Source of the DNA: a virus
Reading direction: 5' to 3' (one strand)
Length of the DNA stretch: 20,969 nucleotides
Virus record (IMG/VR): IMGVR_UViG_3300027833_000255
Coordinates: 1 to 20,969 of that record
Under the pieces are notes generated by a model. That model had not been told where the DNA came from, did no database searches, and saw only the letters and a program-made list of their open reading frames with translations. Within the stretch, counting starts at the first letter, position 1. The number at the start of each line of letters is the position of its first letter. Shown piece after piece: positions 5,963-20,399 of the stretch. The translations under genes and the position numbers were made by a program.

Positions 5963-7546
5963 TTAAACCATTTCAATATAAAAATTATCTGTAGATTCCA
6001 CTGGAGTCCATGCGCCAGTGTGAACATGATTAGCAAGTGCAAGAGCCATTACGCAGTCATCAAAGCATCCTGCTTCTGCTTGCATAGCTCCACTCTCAGT
6101 CACGATGTACGAAAGCATTTCGCGTAGAGTCACCTTGCAATTAATTTCCAACTGCTCTTCACGCATCGCTGCGCGGAGTTGGTCAATGATCAAAGGTTTA
6201 GTCTTCTGAGTCGTTGTGAAACCAAGTTTTGTAGTCTCTCGGTCTGTCAGCTTGTCTATCTGTGTTTCAGTGTAAAAGTTGGGGTAAGCCATATCTTTAC
6301 CTAACCGTGTACACGTTAGGATGCCGTGTGAGTTGTTCTCCACACAGATAAAGGCTTCGTTGTAGTATTCGCCAAGTGCGTATAACACTTCAGCAAAGTA
6401 ATCAGGATGGGCATGGCCTCTCCAAGTAGCTACTTGGCGCTTCTTAGAGTCCAAGACTTGGCAGACAGAGTAGTCCCCGCCCCTTACACCCATGGCAACA
6501 TCAGCGCCGATGACGTACTGCTCACCTTCTTGGTGCTTTCTATAGGTACTAAGTTCGCCTCTTGCATTGTTAATAAACTCGCCGCCCTCAAGCGCAAGAC
6601 GCTCGTTTAGGTCTCTGGTTTCTTTTAGCTTCTTAGATAGCTGCTCTGGGTTAAACACAGGGCGGCCAGTAGTGAGAAACGCTTCATCAGGTTCGCTTGG
6701 ATACTCTTGTCTAAAAAGATCAATGCCGTTCTGGGCTATCTTTCTACGCCTAAACATTAACTGCTCATCGTCTAAAGAATAAAGTTCGGCTAAGTCTTCT
6801 TCGTCAGGAGTTCTTTCAAAGTTGTCAGAGACCGGCTCACGATAATCAACATCAGTGAACCAAGGAATAAACACAGGCACATAACCATTAGACCCATCCA
6901 CTGCACCACGCCATAAATCCGCAAATATACCTGTTGCACCATTCGCTGTACTTTCGACAAAAATAGCTGTGCCTTTGGCATTTGGGACAGCCTGTGTAAG
7001 ACCGTTCCAGTTATCCAAGGCAGTACTCTTTTGCCAGAATGCCAGTTCTGACGCATGTACATGGGTAAGTGTCTCACCACGGCCAATGCTCTCACCGCCA
7101 GCCGTTGCCACAACAAAACTAGAATCGAGAACGTCAAAATTCATCTCCCGTCTAGAGGAATACTTTGTGTGTGGCTTTAAGATGTCAGGGCAATGCTCAT
7201 GGAATCTTTTGGTCATATCAAACAGAGCGCGAGTAGAGTCAGCGTGGTGTGTAATAACCATTGCCTTACACGCAGCCTTTTGACTTACAGAGAAATAAAG
7301 GTAGCCACCAGTGTAAGTGGATAGACCCTGCTGCCTAGCCTTCAGGATAATCACACGGACTTTACCTTCGGTGGCTATCTGATCTTCGACTGCTTTGTTA
7401 AGTATTTGCTGTGCTGAATTTAACTTGAGGGGGGAAATGTCACCTAACTTTGTTCTTATCTTTAAAGAGGCTTTGGAGTAGTAACCGAAGTCATTCAGTA
7501 ATCTCTTCCGTACCTTCGCTAGTTTCTGGTGCATCGGGCTGCTCAT
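5963..7546 (-). CDS. terL: Terminase large subunit (packaging ATPase/nuclease)
   Basis: The 527-residue protein is a complete packaging motor. A deviant Walker A, KARQQGLST, occupies residues 69-77. The Walker B region LTHVHASE (160-167) ends in the catalytic Glu167. The coupling motif FVESTANG is at 197-204. The C-terminal RNase H-like nuclease shows GADVA (Asp349), CVENNSHG (Glu403) and FDDCVMAL (Asp496/Asp497). It would translocate DNA through the portal using ATP and cut concatemers. It overlaps the small subunit gene by 56 bases. The first ATG (7546) has AGAGG immediately upstream with almost no spacing; the ATG four codons later (7534) may be the real start. The portal follows three bases downstream. 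All main catalytic residues are present. Confidence 0.95.
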   Translation of the reverse strand: MSSPMHQKLAKVRKRLLNDFGYYSKASLKIRTKLGDISPLKLNSAQQILNKAVEDQIATEGKVRVIILKARQQGLSTYTGGYLYFSVSQKAACKAMVITHHADSTRALFDMTKRFHEHCPDILKPHTKYSSRREMNFDVLDSSFVVATAGGESIGRGETLTHVHASELAFWQKSTALDNWNGLTQAVPNAKGTAIFVESTANGATGIFADLWRGAVDGSNGYVPVFIPWFTDVDYREPVSDNFERTPDEEDLAELYSLDDEQLMFRRRKIAQNGIDLFRQEYPSEPDEAFLTTGRPVFNPEQLSKKLKETRDLNERLALEGGEFINNARGELSTYRKHQEGEQYVIGADVAMGVRGGDYSVCQVLDSKKRQVATWRGHAHPDYFAEVLYALGEYYNEAFICVENNSHGILTCTRLGKDMAYPNFYTETQIDKLTDRETTKLGFTTTQKTKPLIIDQLRAAMREEQLEINCKVTLREMLSYIVTESGAMQAEAGCFDDCVMALALANHVHTGAWTPVESTDNFYIEMV

Positions 7547-12078: not shown

Positions 12079-13140
12079 TTAAAAGCCGTTCCACATGCCG
12101 CCACGAGAATTTAGTGTTGATAGATCGCCTACCCCACCACCGCCACCACCAGCATTACCGCCGCCACCAGCATTACCGCCGCCATAGTAGTTCCCCATTT
12201 TCATCCCAATACCTGCACCTTGCATAGCACCGCCAAATGCCGCTGCACCAGGACTAGCTGTAACTTGTATCGGGTTTTGCGGAGAGTTGTAATCTGCTTG
12301 TCCTAAAATACCTTGCTGATACTTAATTCCTTGGTTTAAGGCGAAGTCACGGCTGTCTTCAAACCTAGCGCGGTTATCGTTATAACGGTCTTGCGTAAAT
12401 CCTCTGAGATTAGCCCCAGCGCCCGTCATAAAGTCACCCATCGTACCCATGGAGTTAATACCCTGTCTGTATGCGCTAGACATGCCCTCATTGGCCATCA
12501 TTCGGTCTTTAAACTGCTGGTTCTGCTGGTCAAGAGATTGACCCATAAGGTTCTGGTTAATCGTAGAGGTAACATCTGCCCTTCTGTCATCGTAGGCACG
12601 GTTAGCAATTGCATCTTGGACACCAGCGCGACTAGAGTTTATGTTTCCTGTGCCGCTGGCATTTTGGTTTATACCTGTAAGGGTATTCTCTTGGAGGTTT
12701 CGGGTATCGTTCCGCATAGCAGCATCAACTAGACCGCCAGAGTTATTCAAAGCGTAGTCTTGGGCGGTCTTAATGCGGTCATCTTGGGATGCGTTGTAGA
12801 GATCATTAAAGTTTTGCCCAAAACCTTGGCCTGACTGGGTAAGGTTGTATGCACCCTCTGCACCCGCAGCACCCATGTTGCCAATGTAGTTATTACCTGC
12901 TATCTGCATTGCGTTAGGGTCAGCCAAGGTCTTACCAGTGTACGCGCCACCAGCTAAAGAATCGTTGTAAGCAGTCTCGGCGGCGTTGTAGCTGCGCTCT
13001 ATGTAAGGCTTAGAGAATCGAAAAGACTCTGCTTGCATATTAGCTGCATCTCTCTGTGCGTTTGCGGCTTGCTTACCGCCTAGATATGATCCAGCGCCGC
13101 CTATTACCCCACCAATTACTGCTGCTGTTATAAATCCCAT
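12079..13140 (-). CDS. Glycine-zipper virion protein, probable DNA-injection protein
   Basis: The 353-residue protein begins with a hydrophobic glycine zipper (GFITAAVIGGVIGGAGSYLG, residues 2-21). A helix rich in Ala/Gln/Asn follows (KQAANAQRDAANMQAESF), and a long Asn/Gln/Asp-rich middle with many Tyr and Asn. It ends with a glycine-rich tail (about 318-340) encoded in part by an 18-bp tandem repeat. Small proteins with exactly this N-terminal type are injected virion proteins in several podoviruses, where the zipper is thought to enter the membrane. Its ATG overlaps the stop of the cupin gene (TAATG), showing translational coupling. The 477-residue gene follows after 16 bp. The role is inferred from the N-terminus and neighbourhood; enzymatic motifs are absent. 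Confidence 0.65.
   Translation of the reverse strand: MGFITAAVIGGVIGGAGSYLGGKQAANAQRDAANMQAESFRFSKPYIERSYNAAETAYNDSLAGGAYTGKTLADPNAMQIAGNNYIGNMGAAGAEGAYNLTQSGQGFGQNFNDLYNASQDDRIKTAQDYALNNSGGLVDAAMRNDTRNLQENTLTGINQNASGTGNINSSRAGVQDAIANRAYDDRRADVTSTINQNLMGQSLDQQNQQFKDRMMANEGMSSAYRQGINSMGTMGDFMTGAGANLRGFTQDRYNDNRARFEDSRDFALNQGIKYQQGILGQADYNSPQNPIQVTASPGAAAFGGAMQGAGIGMKMGNYYGGGNAGGGGNAGGGGGGVGDLSTLNSRGGMWNGF
12148..12183. repeat. 18-bp tandem repeat in glycine-rich coding tail
   Basis: Two perfect copies of ACCAGCATTACCGCCGCC lie head to tail, with a degenerate third piece just before them. They encode the GGGNAG-type repeat at the C-terminus of the injection-protein candidate. Replication slippage in this block would change the tail length in frame. 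Confidence 0.9.
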
Positions 13141-13631
13141 TATGTGTTCTCCAAAAAAAGTTTGAGGTCAGGTTCTTCTAGCCCCATAGATGTATAGGAA
13201 GGGGCTATAACCTCATCCTCCATTTGTTCTAGTTTGTCTTCGCCTAAGTGTTTCGTGATATGCACATTGGTCAGGATGGAATCCTCCAATGCATGAAAAG
13301 CACGTTTTGCGCCAATTGGAGTTACCCATGTGTGCGGGGCTTTCATGTGTACTTTCCCAGTAGACGAAACAACTAATAGCTCACCTTTTAAAAGGAAAGT
13401 CATATGTGAATGCCGGTGTATTTTGCCTACAAACGTCATCCCTTTCGGGACAGTCAGTTCTCTGGTGTATATACCGCAGCCATACTCTTCTATTGCATCC
13501 GTATAAAAGTGACGCAGAGAAGTTTGGTCTATGGCGCACTCATCACCCCCCGATCTAACGGATTCATTTATAGTATTTTCTAGGTGAGTAACTGAGGCTT
13601 TTAAGGAGTCGGCTACACTAAGATTACCCAT
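13140..13631 (-). CDS. Cupin-fold protein in the tail gene cluster
   Basis: The 163-residue protein contains a cupin-like core. Motif 1 is GKIHRHSHMTFLLKGELLV (residues 69-87), with His72, His74 and His76 as metal-ligand candidates and Gly83 at the turn. Motif 2 is VTPIGAKRAFHALED (103-117), with the Pro-x-Gly turn and His113; His124 follows in a beta strand. Cupins are small beta-barrels that are enzymes or purely structural or sugar-binding modules. No substrate can be read here. The gene is within the virion block, between the tail assembly chaperone and injection-protein genes. Its stop overlaps the next start, so it is probably a virion component or tail-assembly factor. SD-like AAGGAGT stands about nine bases before the ATG. 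Fold assignment is good, function open. Confidence 0.7.
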   Translation of the reverse strand: MGNLSVADSLKASVTHLENTINESVRSGGDECAIDQTSLRHFYTDAIEEYGCGIYTRELTVPKGMTFVGKIHRHSHMTFLLKGELLVVSSTGKVHMKAPHTWVTPIGAKRAFHALEDSILTNVHITKHLGEDKLEQMEDEVIAPSYTSMGLEEPDLKLFLENT

Positions 13632-18311: not shown

Positions 18312-18575
18312 CTAGTACAGGGCTACTATGCCTGCCGCTGTAGTGCCTGTGGACTTAATGATGTTTGGGCGTATCGCCAGAGGTACACCTTTAGCTAAGT
18401 AAAACGTAGCAGTAGTACCATCGTCACCTACCACAGACACATTGCCTGCTGTAGTGGAAGCCACAATCTGCTTTGGGAGTAACGCTAGAGCATTGGTGTC
18501 ATGGGGGGTAATGGGTGCCCATCGCTTAGAGGGGGACTCTACGCCATGGTAATGGGTTGCATATGGGTCAGACAT
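18312..18575 (-). CDS. Spike-base-like small virion protein (RcGTA rcc01079-like)
   Basis: This 87-residue protein is the first gene of the leftward array. GGAGAC stands seven bases before its ATG. The sequence follows a recognisable pattern: ESPSKRWAPITPHDTNALAL (residues 13-32), GNVSVVGDDGTTATFYLAKG (44-63), then PLAIRPNIIKSTGTTAAGIV and ALY at the end. By recall this resembles the small beta-barrel 'spike base' family named from gene transfer agent protein rcc01079 and common in phages, where it sits on head spikes or other virion surfaces. The resemblance rests on the ITPxDT, GNVxVV and STGTTAxGIVALY segments, with no alignment run. The neighbour is the 51-residue gene, and the short fibre follows. 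Confidence 0.6.
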   Translation of the reverse strand: MSDPYATHYHGVESPSKRWAPITPHDTNALALLPKQIVASTTAGNVSVVGDDGTTATFYLAKGVPLAIRPNIIKSTGTTAAGIVALY

Positions 18576-18924
18576 TGGTGATGTCTCCTACAAGTTATAT
18601 GGGATTAATCGTTAGTGTTTCTCTGGGGGGACTCTGGTTAACAAAGCCTAATAACAACAACAACAAGGCGGGGGTTTACCGGCATTTTTGAATTGCCATT
18701 GGATTTAGGCCCACGGGGTCACTTTTGGGCTAGGGAACCTAAAAATCGGGGCGCAATCAGCTAACCTATTGATTTACATAGGGTTATCAGACAACGGATA
18801 TGCTATCTATTGCGCGGCTGCGGGTTGCACTGAGTAACTTAGGGCCATTGCCCATTGGTTTTACTCTGTGAAAAATATATTGGTGTAAGGCTACTATTAT
18901 TGTTTACAAATGCGGTCGTATGGG

Positions 18925-18940
18925 GGTCACCATGGTTACC
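18925..18940. promoter_or_regulatory. 16-bp near-perfect palindrome, operator candidate
   Basis: GGTCACCATGGTTACC reads the same on both strands except for one mismatched pair, centred on CCATGG. With a two-base bulge the symmetry extends to flanking TATGGG/CCCATA. A second CCATGG lies 15 bp to the right. It has the size of a dimeric repressor site. Confidence 0.45.
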
Positions 18941-18986
18941 CATACCATGGCTGTAGAGGAAGCCGAACCATATTACCTATTAACCA

Positions 18987-19170
18987 ACCTAAGTTATAAC
19001 TAGAGACTAGGGTTCACTATATGCCGCTTTTCTTTAGTCCCTAGTGACCTTGGCTATAAACTATATGTAGGTATAAGTAGTAGTTAGACCTAAGACCAAC
19101 TAAGCAACCTAAGACCAACTAAGCCAAACCATAGTTATCGCCTGTCGATCTACCGGATAACCTAAGACCA
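18987..19170 (+). repeat. CCTAAG-type iteron cluster
   Basis: Two perfect copies of ACCTAAGACCAACTAAGC start at 19088 and 19107 (period 19 bp). A partial copy, ACCTAAGACCA, is at 19160-19170, and a shorter one, ACCTAAG, at 18987-18993. An inverted copy, AACTTAGG, lies outside the cluster at 18836-18843. Spaced directed copies in a non-coding phage control region resemble initiator- or repressor-binding iterons. Function is inferred. Confidence 0.6.
19006..19045 (+). promoter_or_regulatory. Stem-loop with T7-family-like promoter core
   Basis: ACTAGGG (19006-19012) and CCCTAGT (19039-19045) form a 7-bp inverted repeat with a 26-base loop. TCACTATA (19014-19021) starts two bases after the left arm and equals the core of the T7 consensus promoter, although the upstream bases differ. 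A host-type promoter candidate follows: TTGGCT (19050-19055), 16 bp, TATAAG (19072-19077). Only one copy of the core was noticed in this window, which weakens the phage-polymerase reading. Confidence 0.3.
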
Positions 19171-19366
19171 TTACCCACCGCTTACCTACTATTTAACTTG
19201 AGTCTACCTATGGTCTGGAGTAGCCCATTGTGCGCGACGGCGTATACCGTAGGTTATATCATATAGGTGGACACAATTAGAAATGCTACAAAAGTCCTAT
19301 TTATTAGCATAATCTCCTGTTTGTTCCTTTTATTGTCTTTTTATGCCCTTTGTGCTCTTTTAGCTG

Positions 19367-19402
19367 TTGATTTAAGGACACATAGGTAGTAAATTAGTAC
19401 CT
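19367..19402 (+). promoter_or_regulatory. Sigma70-like promoter with palindromic operator
   Basis: TTGATT (19367-19372) and TAAATT (19390-19395) are 17 bp apart, each 4/6 to consensus. The -10 lies inside AGGTAGTAAATTAGTACCT (19384-19402), a 19-bp palindrome with one mismatched pair and a central unpaired base. A half-site, TTAGGTAC, recurs at 19413-19420, over the SD region of the 253-residue gene. The arrangement fits autoregulation of the rightward operon. Confidence 0.5.
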
Positions 19403-19425
19403 CATTCAGTTATTAGGTACTTTAT

Positions 19426-20187
19426 ATGCGTTATTTATCAGACAAAAAGACTACTCCGGTGGCTGGCTTGCCGCGCAGCCGTGGGTACATTATGTGGGAA
19501 GGCGCTAGTGTGTTGGATGGCTCACCTATAGCAGTCATAGCCACCATGGCGACCAGTAATGTAAAGACTGGCGACATGGTACAAACATGGATCATTCGCA
19601 CAGATGTTAACCCTGTAGAAGCCACCAAGACCGGCCAAGATTCGGCTGTTTGTGGTAATTGCCCGCATCGCCACTACAACAAAGGCGCATGCTATGTAAA
19701 TGTGGGCCAAGCGCCCAACGCTGTATATAAAGGTTACCACCGTGGCATCTACCCAGCTTTTGATCTAGCGCAGCATGGGCACCATTTTGCTGGCCGTAAG
19801 ATTCGATTAGGCGCTTATGGCGACCCAGCAGCAGCACCCTTTGCCGCAATGGCATCTATTGCACTGCTTGGCACTGGCCACACTGGCTATACCCACCAAG
19901 CCAACCACCCCAACTTTGACCCACAGTTCTACTCGCTGTGCATGGTATCGGCTGACACCCCCAAGCAGGCACTTAAGTATCAGGCCCAAGGCGCTAAGAC
20001 CTTTCGCGTGGCTATGGCTGGCGATGCGCTGTTTGATACCGAGATCGAATGTCTATCGGATAGCAAGGGCATCCAGTGCATTGACTGCGGCCTATGTGAT
20101 GGCTCCACCAAGAATATCGCGATCACCGTCCACGGCTCGCGCTCTAGTAACTTCAAATCCAATCTAATAGAGGCTGTACAACTATGA
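19426..20187 (+). CDS. Seven-cysteine protein, unknown function (DUF7227-like)
   Basis: The 253-residue protein is the first gene of the rightward operon. It has two cysteine clusters: CGNCPHRHYNKGAC (Cys76, Cys79, Cys89) near the middle, and ECLSDSKGIQCIDCGLC (Cys209, Cys218, Cys221, Cys224) near the C-terminus. Between them lie KIRLGAYGDPAAAPFAAMAS (125-144), GHTGYTHQ (151-158) and VSADTPKQAL (174-183). The spacing pattern, with TYTHQ-like and SADT segments and a closing CxxCxxC, recalls a family of uncharacterised phage and plasmid proteins (DUF7227-type). The clusters could bind zinc or an iron-sulphur centre; neither can be decided here. The SD is weak (TTAGGT, eight bases upstream). Its stop overlaps the next start (ATGA). 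Early expression is inferred from position and promoter. Confidence 0.75.
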   Translation: MRYLSDKKTTPVAGLPRSRGYIMWEGASVLDGSPIAVIATMATSNVKTGDMVQTWIIRTDVNPVEATKTGQDSAVCGNCPHRHYNKGACYVNVGQAPNAVYKGYHRGIYPAFDLAQHGHHFAGRKIRLGAYGDPAAAPFAAMASIALLGTGHTGYTHQANHPNFDPQFYSLCMVSADTPKQALKYQAQGAKTFRVAMAGDALFDTEIECLSDSKGIQCIDCGLCDGSTKNIAITVHGSRSSNFKSNLIEAVQL

Positions 20188-20399
20188 ATATCACACAAGC
20201 ACAAGCAGTAATCGACCAAGCGCACGAAATGGGTCTGATCAATGGTACTCAGGCCATCTGGCGCAGCGAAATGATTCGGCGCAAAGAGCGTTATGGCGGC
20301 AAACCTATGTTTTGGGCTGAAGCCGGACGGATGCGCGCCAACCTTTTAGATGACCTACCCCCAGTGATTACAGCAGCAAATCAGGAGGTGTCAGCATGA
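20184..20399 (+). CDS. Small early protein, unknown function
   Basis: A 71-residue protein is coupled to the preceding gene by an ATGA overlap, with GAGG ten bases upstream. It is mostly helical and charged: QAQAVIDQAHEMGLINGTQA, then WRSEMIRRKERYGGKPMFWA and EAGRMRANLLDDLPP. No cysteine pairs or membrane segment are present. The alternating helices with basic patches could bind nucleic acid or a partner protein, but no family is recognised. The next gene also overlaps by ATGA, so the three genes are one translational unit. Confidence 0.7.
   Translation: MNITQAQAVIDQAHEMGLINGTQAIWRSEMIRRKERYGGKPMFWAEAGRMRANLLDDLPPVITAANQEVSA

Follow-up and report, generated by a model that had tools for sequence, protein, structure and literature searches.

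Phage protein family phrog_2554, with two conserved cysteine clusters, as a candidate radical-SAM-like iron-sulphur enzyme

What do the two cysteine clusters of a 253-aa viral protein hold, and what may the protein do with them? The question is raised by a rightward gene in the window analyzed here (the whole stretch of 20,969 nt, IMG/VR record IMGVR_UViG_3300027833_000255). A preliminary description, made from the sequence alone, had given the boundaries of this ORF, its CX2CX9C and CX8CX2CX2C clusters, and the motifs GAYGDP and GYTHQ between them, all of which are exact in the sequence (Table 1). It had also counted seven cysteines; as the protein contains eight, with C172 outside both clusters, this number is right only as a count of the clustered and conserved ones. 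The protein is real and widely conserved, and radical-SAM-like Fe-S chemistry appears to be the most likely answer.

Table 1. Features of the gene and its surroundings in the window
Feature	Position	Strand	Remarks
Leader upstream of the gene	19229..19425	+	joined to the gene without interruption in L050 and L061, its two nearest relatives
Inverted repeat AGTACCT / AGGTACT	19396..19421	+	directly before the start codon; predicted hairpin
phrog_2554 gene	19426..20187	+	ORF of 253 aa (P0001); proposed radical-SAM-like Fe-S enzyme
Three-cysteine cluster C76-x2-C79-x9-C89, then YVN	19651..19692	+	proposed site of a SAM-binding [4Fe-4S] cluster
GAYGDP, residues 129-134	19810..19827	+	end of predicted strand 125-131
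GYTHQ, residues 154-158	19885..19899	+	end of predicted strand 151-156
Four-cysteine cluster C209-x8-C218-x2-C221-x2-C224	20050..20097	+	proposed auxiliary cluster
Second ORF of the operon, 71 aa	20184..20399	+	start overlaps the stop of the phrog_2554 gene (ATGA at 20184-20187)
Third ORF of the operon, 63 aa	20396..20587	+	ATGA overlap again (20396-20399)

The protein falls in phrog_2554 of the PHROGs collection (E 5.1e-74, 251 bits, residues 7-246), a family of unknown function, in agreement with the earlier statement that no reaction is assigned to it. As it covers only positions 273-522 of the 529-position profile, some phrog_2554 members appear to have an extra N-terminal part. The protein had been called DUF7227-like, and as a statement of distant relationship this holds: the DUF7227 profile gives sub-threshold matches in 24 out of 29 phrog_2554 members (best E 3.6e-4), mostly on the C-terminal cysteine segment, and a Foldseek search of predicted viral structures retrieves DUF7227-named proteins (E 7.4e-7 and 3.6e-4). 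As a family assignment it does not hold, the score for DUF7227 (PF23872) being 12.5 bits against a gathering cut-off of 27 bits, and the family proper being phrog_2554; in the records searched, no DUF7227 match above the cut-off was found (0/9 and 0/49). Membership in GP88 proper (PF17338, cut-off 24.4 bits) was rejected as well, the protein having no Pfam match at E <= 1. At the same threshold neither the Pfam radical-SAM model PF04055 nor any NCBIfam model matches the protein. PADLOC yielded no match for it, for one GP88 protein or for the protein at locus L137, and sequence searches of solved structures with the protein itself and with profiles A2, A3 and A5 gave no meaningful match.

The family is common. 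Relatives are present in 148 of 50,697 phage records; among viral contigs, the single-sequence query detects them in 64, and the 29-member alignment in at least 578, of which 80 were retained. The GP88 branch, whose members were gathered from HGTV-1, phages and viral contigs, comprises at least 566 further viral contigs; gene 88 of D29, a model phage, belongs to this branch. Since two search patterns yielded only at least eight relative loci, one of them partial, in a collection of 84,980 species genomes, phrog_2554 looks nearly confined to phages and prophages. GP88 was found in none of four phrog_2554 phages, a sample too small to claim exclusion. Screening 274 genomes for DUF7227 and 148 genomes for GP88 gave no match, but the controls gave none either, and this result carries no weight.

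Whether the clustered cysteines are conserved among homologues had been named in the preliminary description as a point to check, and they are. We aligned the protein with 61 loci chosen from viral contigs and species genomes, omitting truncated and near-identical ones. In the resulting 62 sequences C76, C79, C89, C218, C221 and C224 are always cysteines and C209 is a cysteine in 61, with one gap, while C172, serving as an internal control, is a cysteine in 38. The larger alignment A2 (79 rows, mean column identity 42%) shows six clustered cysteines as invariant and the seventh, C209, as at least 90% conserved. Judged from these alignments, cysteine conservation is well beyond chance, and the metal site put forward in the preliminary description becomes plausible in the form of two sites. 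The spacing inside the clusters is more relaxed, with 5-24 residues between C79 and C89 (nine in 55 of 79 rows) and 7-11 between C209 and C218 (eight in 52 of 79).

The segments between the clusters are conserved too. In the 79 rows G129, G132 and D133 of GAYGDP are invariant, and Y131 and P134 are conserved in at least 90%; in the GYTHQ region the same applies to T153, Y155 and H157 (invariant) and to G154 and Q158 (at least 90%). Other invariant non-cysteine residues are S28, N45, K47, T48, Q53, P63, R127 and S175. Synonymous codon differences exceed non-synonymous ones in comparisons of the gene with its relatives in L001 (114 vs 44), L006 (105 vs 52) and L014 (113 vs 68), and by these counts the gene is under purifying selection.

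The AlphaFold2 model based on the 79-row alignment has a mean pLDDT of 91.1 and a pTM of 0.86. Its strands 52-58, 125-131 (running into GAYG), 151-156 (TGYT), 173-176 (MVSA), 192-196 (TFRVA) and 230-234 (before VHG) follow each other in an order that fits a six-stranded partial TIM barrel, the three-cysteine loop being predicted after the first of these strands and the four-cysteine segment before the sixth; N-terminal strands 20-27 and 34-40 and a short strand 206-208 are modelled in addition. Clustering of conserved residues behind the strands was considered as a proof of a barrel active site and rejected, as 48 out of 219 circular shifts do equally well.

Foldseek with this model gave no PDB match at E <= 0.001. 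The best of 998 re-aligned PDB chains is QueE (Z 3.7, rmsd 5.3, 150 aligned), the next row has Z 2.6, and the remaining listed rows, at most 2.6, are mostly other barrels, among them the isocitrate-lyase type at 2.3-2.5. Two more radical-SAM enzymes are present in the 24 rows, 5why, which we take to be CteB (Z 2.3), and Cfr (Z 2.0). Taken alone, the match of the predicted structure to QueE is weak. Among predicted viral structures, the model also matches a GP88-named protein (Foldseek E 8e-4) and, weakly, a Gp37/Gp68-like protein (0.18). The model of GP88 (pLDDT 91.3, pTM 0.89) has the same strand order, and among the best 50 of 1000 PDB chains re-aligned with it, ranks 1-6 are occupied by spore photoproduct lyase (Z 7.1-6.3), with ChlB (Z 6.0) and MiaB (Z 5.8 and 5.7) in lower rows; a dipeptide epimerase and deaminases reach Z 6.1-6.3, that is inside the tie range of the tool, and Z under 8 may reflect no more than a common arrangement. 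Hence the best solved matches of the predicted structures are radical-SAM enzymes, with scores that are low or tied with those of other barrels.

Profile comparisons connect phrog_2554 to GP88. Hhalign gives E 1.6e-5 for this pair, 9.6e-6 in a repeat with reversed controls at 0.08-0.12, and 2.9e-5 with a larger GP88 set (reversed controls 0.02-0.05). GP88, to which D29 gene 88 belongs, has several features in common with phrog_2554: a three-cysteine loop that ends in CY, a GD following the next strand, a strand of the S-x-D-like kind, a four-cysteine motif CP..C..C..C before the last strand, and the order of strands itself. It differs from phrog_2554 in the first motif, which is CX6CX3CY in GP88 (31/32) and CX2CXnCY in phrog_2554. 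For one GP88 gene, L265, there is a match to the DUF7227 profile over positions 5-205 that stays below the cut-off (23 bits, E 8.8e-7); in fold, the GP88 model is similar to a Gp37/Gp68-like protein (E 7.6e-6) and to a DUF7227 protein (2.8e-5).

A further step leads from GP88 to DUF5131 (PF07505, phage Gp37/Gp68), with a CX6CX2CY loop followed by SD and a barrel-like strand order. This loop is present in all 18 DUF5131 proteins considered, 18 of 19 loci that had been chosen by a pattern requiring CX4-9CX2CY. Unlike in phrog_2554, the C-terminal four-cysteine motif was not seen in the DUF5131 sequences inspected, and DUF5131 occurs in cells as well as in phages, with 23 positives among 229 genomes of one class. 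The GP88 Pfam model recognizes two DUF5131 proteins at scores under its cut-off (E 1.1e-3 and 1.5e-3); the comparison of the GP88 and DUF5131 profiles is weak (0.0054, controls 0.55-0.62) and loses strength when the larger GP88 set is used (0.089, controls 0.15-0.29). These DUF5131 proteins in turn match the NCBIfam family TIGR04471, "radical SAM mobile pair protein A", again at scores under the cut-off (E 9.5e-29 and 1.4e-9). Direct comparison of phrog_2554 with DUF5131 by hhalign is no better than reversed controls, and comparisons with 23 radical-SAM-type ORFs and bystanders are at the control level. Thus phrog_2554 is tied to GP88 and DUF7227, and the tie between GP88 and DUF5131 is less firm. 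As a separate observation, one DUF5131 protein (L157) matches the PADLOC candidate defence models PDC-M30B and PDC-M41B (E 6e-115 and 5e-113).

The canonical cluster motif of radical-SAM enzymes is CX3CX2C. QueE and spore photoproduct lyase have it, and it is absent from phrog_2554, being found in none of 79 rows of A2 and none of 32 GP88 sequences. The simplest account of these data would be a divergent radical-SAM-like clan, in which the cluster motif has been rewritten as CX2CXnCY, CX6CX3CY or CX6CX2CY; it would be largely phage-borne, comprising phrog_2554, DUF7227 and GP88, and its cellular cousin would be DUF5131. A set of three and a set of four cysteines would suit one SAM-type cluster and one fully ligated auxiliary cluster, and an additional C-terminal cysteine set is also a feature of SPASM/twitch-type radical-SAM enzymes, with C209, C218, C221 and C224 as a possible counterpart here.

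We therefore propose that the protein is a radical-SAM-like Fe-S enzyme with a three-cysteine catalytic and a four-cysteine auxiliary site, made early in infection. Given the lack of CX3CX2C, the control level of direct comparisons and the modest fold scores, we consider this proposal to be evenly poised between right and wrong, and do not claim radical-SAM membership. Under it, C76, C79 and C89 would hold a [4Fe-4S] cluster, the open iron of which would bind S-adenosylmethionine at the mouth of the partial barrel, and one-electron reduction would generate the 5'-deoxyadenosyl radical. The conserved residues at strand ends (GxYGDP, TGYTHQ, SxD, HG) may shape the pocket for SAM and substrate, C209, C218, C221 and C224 would hold the auxiliary cluster, and the enzyme, made early, might modify either a nucleic acid, of host or phage, or a host protein. 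Computation shows the conserved residues, the predicted order of strands, the family links and the place in the early module; the cofactor, the SAM chemistry, the timing in this phage and the substrate class are what we infer.

A different use of the same cysteines would be the binding of one or two structural zinc ions by an early protein that attaches to a host protein or nucleic acid, with no redox or radical chemistry. Zinc sites, too, typically have CX2C pairs, and the variable C79-C89 spacing and the weak direct links to radical-SAM families would suit such a protein. On the other hand, the invariant polar residues N45, K47, T48, Q53, R127, D133, T153, Y155, H157 and S175 look catalytic, the three-plus-four pattern leaves one of the sites a ligand short, and the relatives point to DUF5131 and its radical-SAM-like family; on balance, we regard the zinc protein as unlikely, if worth keeping in mind. 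A barrel Fe-S protein acting without SAM, be it an electron carrier, an Fe-S lyase, or a dead radical-SAM descendant retained as a binder or sensor, would agree with the non-canonical SAM-type motif (0/79) and its variable spacing. Non-canonical cysteine spacing is known, however, in radical-SAM enzymes, e.g., PhnJ and ThiC, and a dead enzyme would not be expected to keep GxYGDP and TGYTHQ so strictly conserved, which makes this explanation improbable in our view. Finally, an unrelated TIM-barrel enzyme (e.g., a deaminase- or lyase-like hydrolase) with added cysteine sites seems very improbable: aligned with the GP88 model, adenosine and cytosine deaminases and enolase-type barrels do score Z 6.2-6.3, less than 1 below spore photoproduct lyase, and isocitrate-lyase-type barrels appear at low Z for the model of our protein, but there is no sequence match to deaminase- or lyase-type families in Pfam, NCBIfam or solved structures, and the GP88-DUF5131 link leads to radical-SAM-like proteins.

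The radical-SAM-like reading includes early synthesis, and the preliminary description had placed the gene first in a regulated early operon. First position is true of the window, where all ten ORFs longer than 250 aa to the left of the gene are on the minus strand, and does not extend to the family. The gene is the first of a co-directional run in three of nine annotated isolates (Bongo, MD18, DSS3_MAL1), second or third in four (Ro1, RhynO, jiawei, S2B), and internal in two (P778, KB12-38). In a crude ORF call for 104 loci, the ORF directly upstream is co-directional in 90 and divergent in 14 (13%), compared to 81 of 286 (28%) for other genes of at least 150 aa in those loci, and the notion that it is always the first early gene was rejected. 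Isolate positions and the ORF call together indicate that the gene is often in or beside an early module and sometimes near its start, and is not regularly first.

In jiawei and S2B, both Autographiviridae, the gene lies near the genome end, with the RNA polymerase gene approximately 5 kb downstream on the same strand; in T7-like phages early genes are located at the genome end, ahead of the RNA polymerase gene. Locus L211 of the GP88 branch corresponds to D29 gene 88, which comes second among the annotated leftward genes counted from the right end, and a published study has the D29 right-arm genes expressed at 15 min, starting near Pleft (PMC5712189). By analogy, on the basis of synteny and the D29 relative, expression of the gene is probably early in this phage too. 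Its task may then be host takeover or nucleic-acid modification, as the preliminary description suggested.

Clustering of neighbors in 64 representative loci was used to search for a fixed partner gene; it gave packaging genes, replication genes and small proteins, none of them constant. One cluster of terminase large subunits is upstream on the opposite strand in at least 14 loci, a second one (represented by L114), also upstream on the opposite strand, in at least six, and a third, upstream on the same strand, in at least seven; a primase/helicase cluster is downstream on the same strand in at least seven. These counts are lower bounds, as many flanks are cut. Some of the clusters represent antisense shadows cast by real genes. 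In Pseudoalteromonas phage KB12-38 the phrog_2554 gene (L148, 6001-6678) is unannotated and follows a gene annotated as an antirestriction protein.

Extending the argument, we may tentatively view phrog_2554, DUF7227 and GP88 as a huge clan, almost restricted to phages, of non-canonical radical-SAM enzymes that carry an auxiliary cluster and act as early modifiers of nucleic acid or host protein in unrelated phages of proteobacteria, cyanobacteria and actinobacteria, and the cellular DUF5131 proteins, with their candidate-defence matches, as the other side of the same chemistry; this wider picture is possible, and we think it more doubtful than not. If the proposal for the protein is true, concrete and testable chemistry would replace the "unknown function" of a widespread early phage protein, an oxygen-sensitive Fe-S step would stand at the start of infection, and phage proteins would be joined to the DUF5131 proteins of candidate defence loci. 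Among open-licence PMC papers we found none on the function of DUF7227, GP88 (gene product 88) or DUF5131, and searches for phage-encoded radical SAM, mycobacteriophage and host takeover likewise retrieved none on function. The gp88 proteins of Waterfoul and Hammy, named in the literature on toxic mycobacteriophage genes (PMC11797047), were set aside, since nothing in the passages naming them shows that they belong to the family.

The last of the ten leftward ORFs ends at 18575, and a terminase large subunit (5963-7546) is encoded among them. In the gap from 18575 to 19426 the longest ORF, wholly or partly inside, has 44 aa. L050 aligns over 19229-19731 (92%) and L061 over 19229-19583 (84%), and positions 19045-19228 are unaligned in L050. 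The leader defined in this way is, by sequence comparison, a probable promoter and translation control region; scanning for sigma-70 promoter and terminator consensus found none, fewer than in shuffles. The hairpin preceding the start codon has a folding z of -2.0, with 9 of 200 shuffles folding equally well, and its inverted repeat is largely kept in L050 (z -1.1) and L061 (z -1.9), all of these z-scores being modest. It may serve as an operator, or else as an RNA element covering the ribosome site. Downstream, the two ATGA stop/start overlaps suggest a translationally coupled operon; the 71-aa ORF has no PHROG match at E <= 1, and the best PHROG match of the 63-aa ORF is not significant (E 0.17).

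The same non-coding gap contains direct repeats at 19087-19170, with the core CCTAAGACCA (12 nt) in three copies and two exact 18-nt copies 19 nt apart. Arrays of CCTAAAG are located near the ends of the T7 genome, and by this resemblance the repeats might mark a terminus or a regulatory site. Elsewhere in the window, a 163-aa ORF on the minus strand (13140-13631) matches PHROGs of a short tail fibre (E 8.6e-26) and a tail fibre adhesin (4.7e-15).
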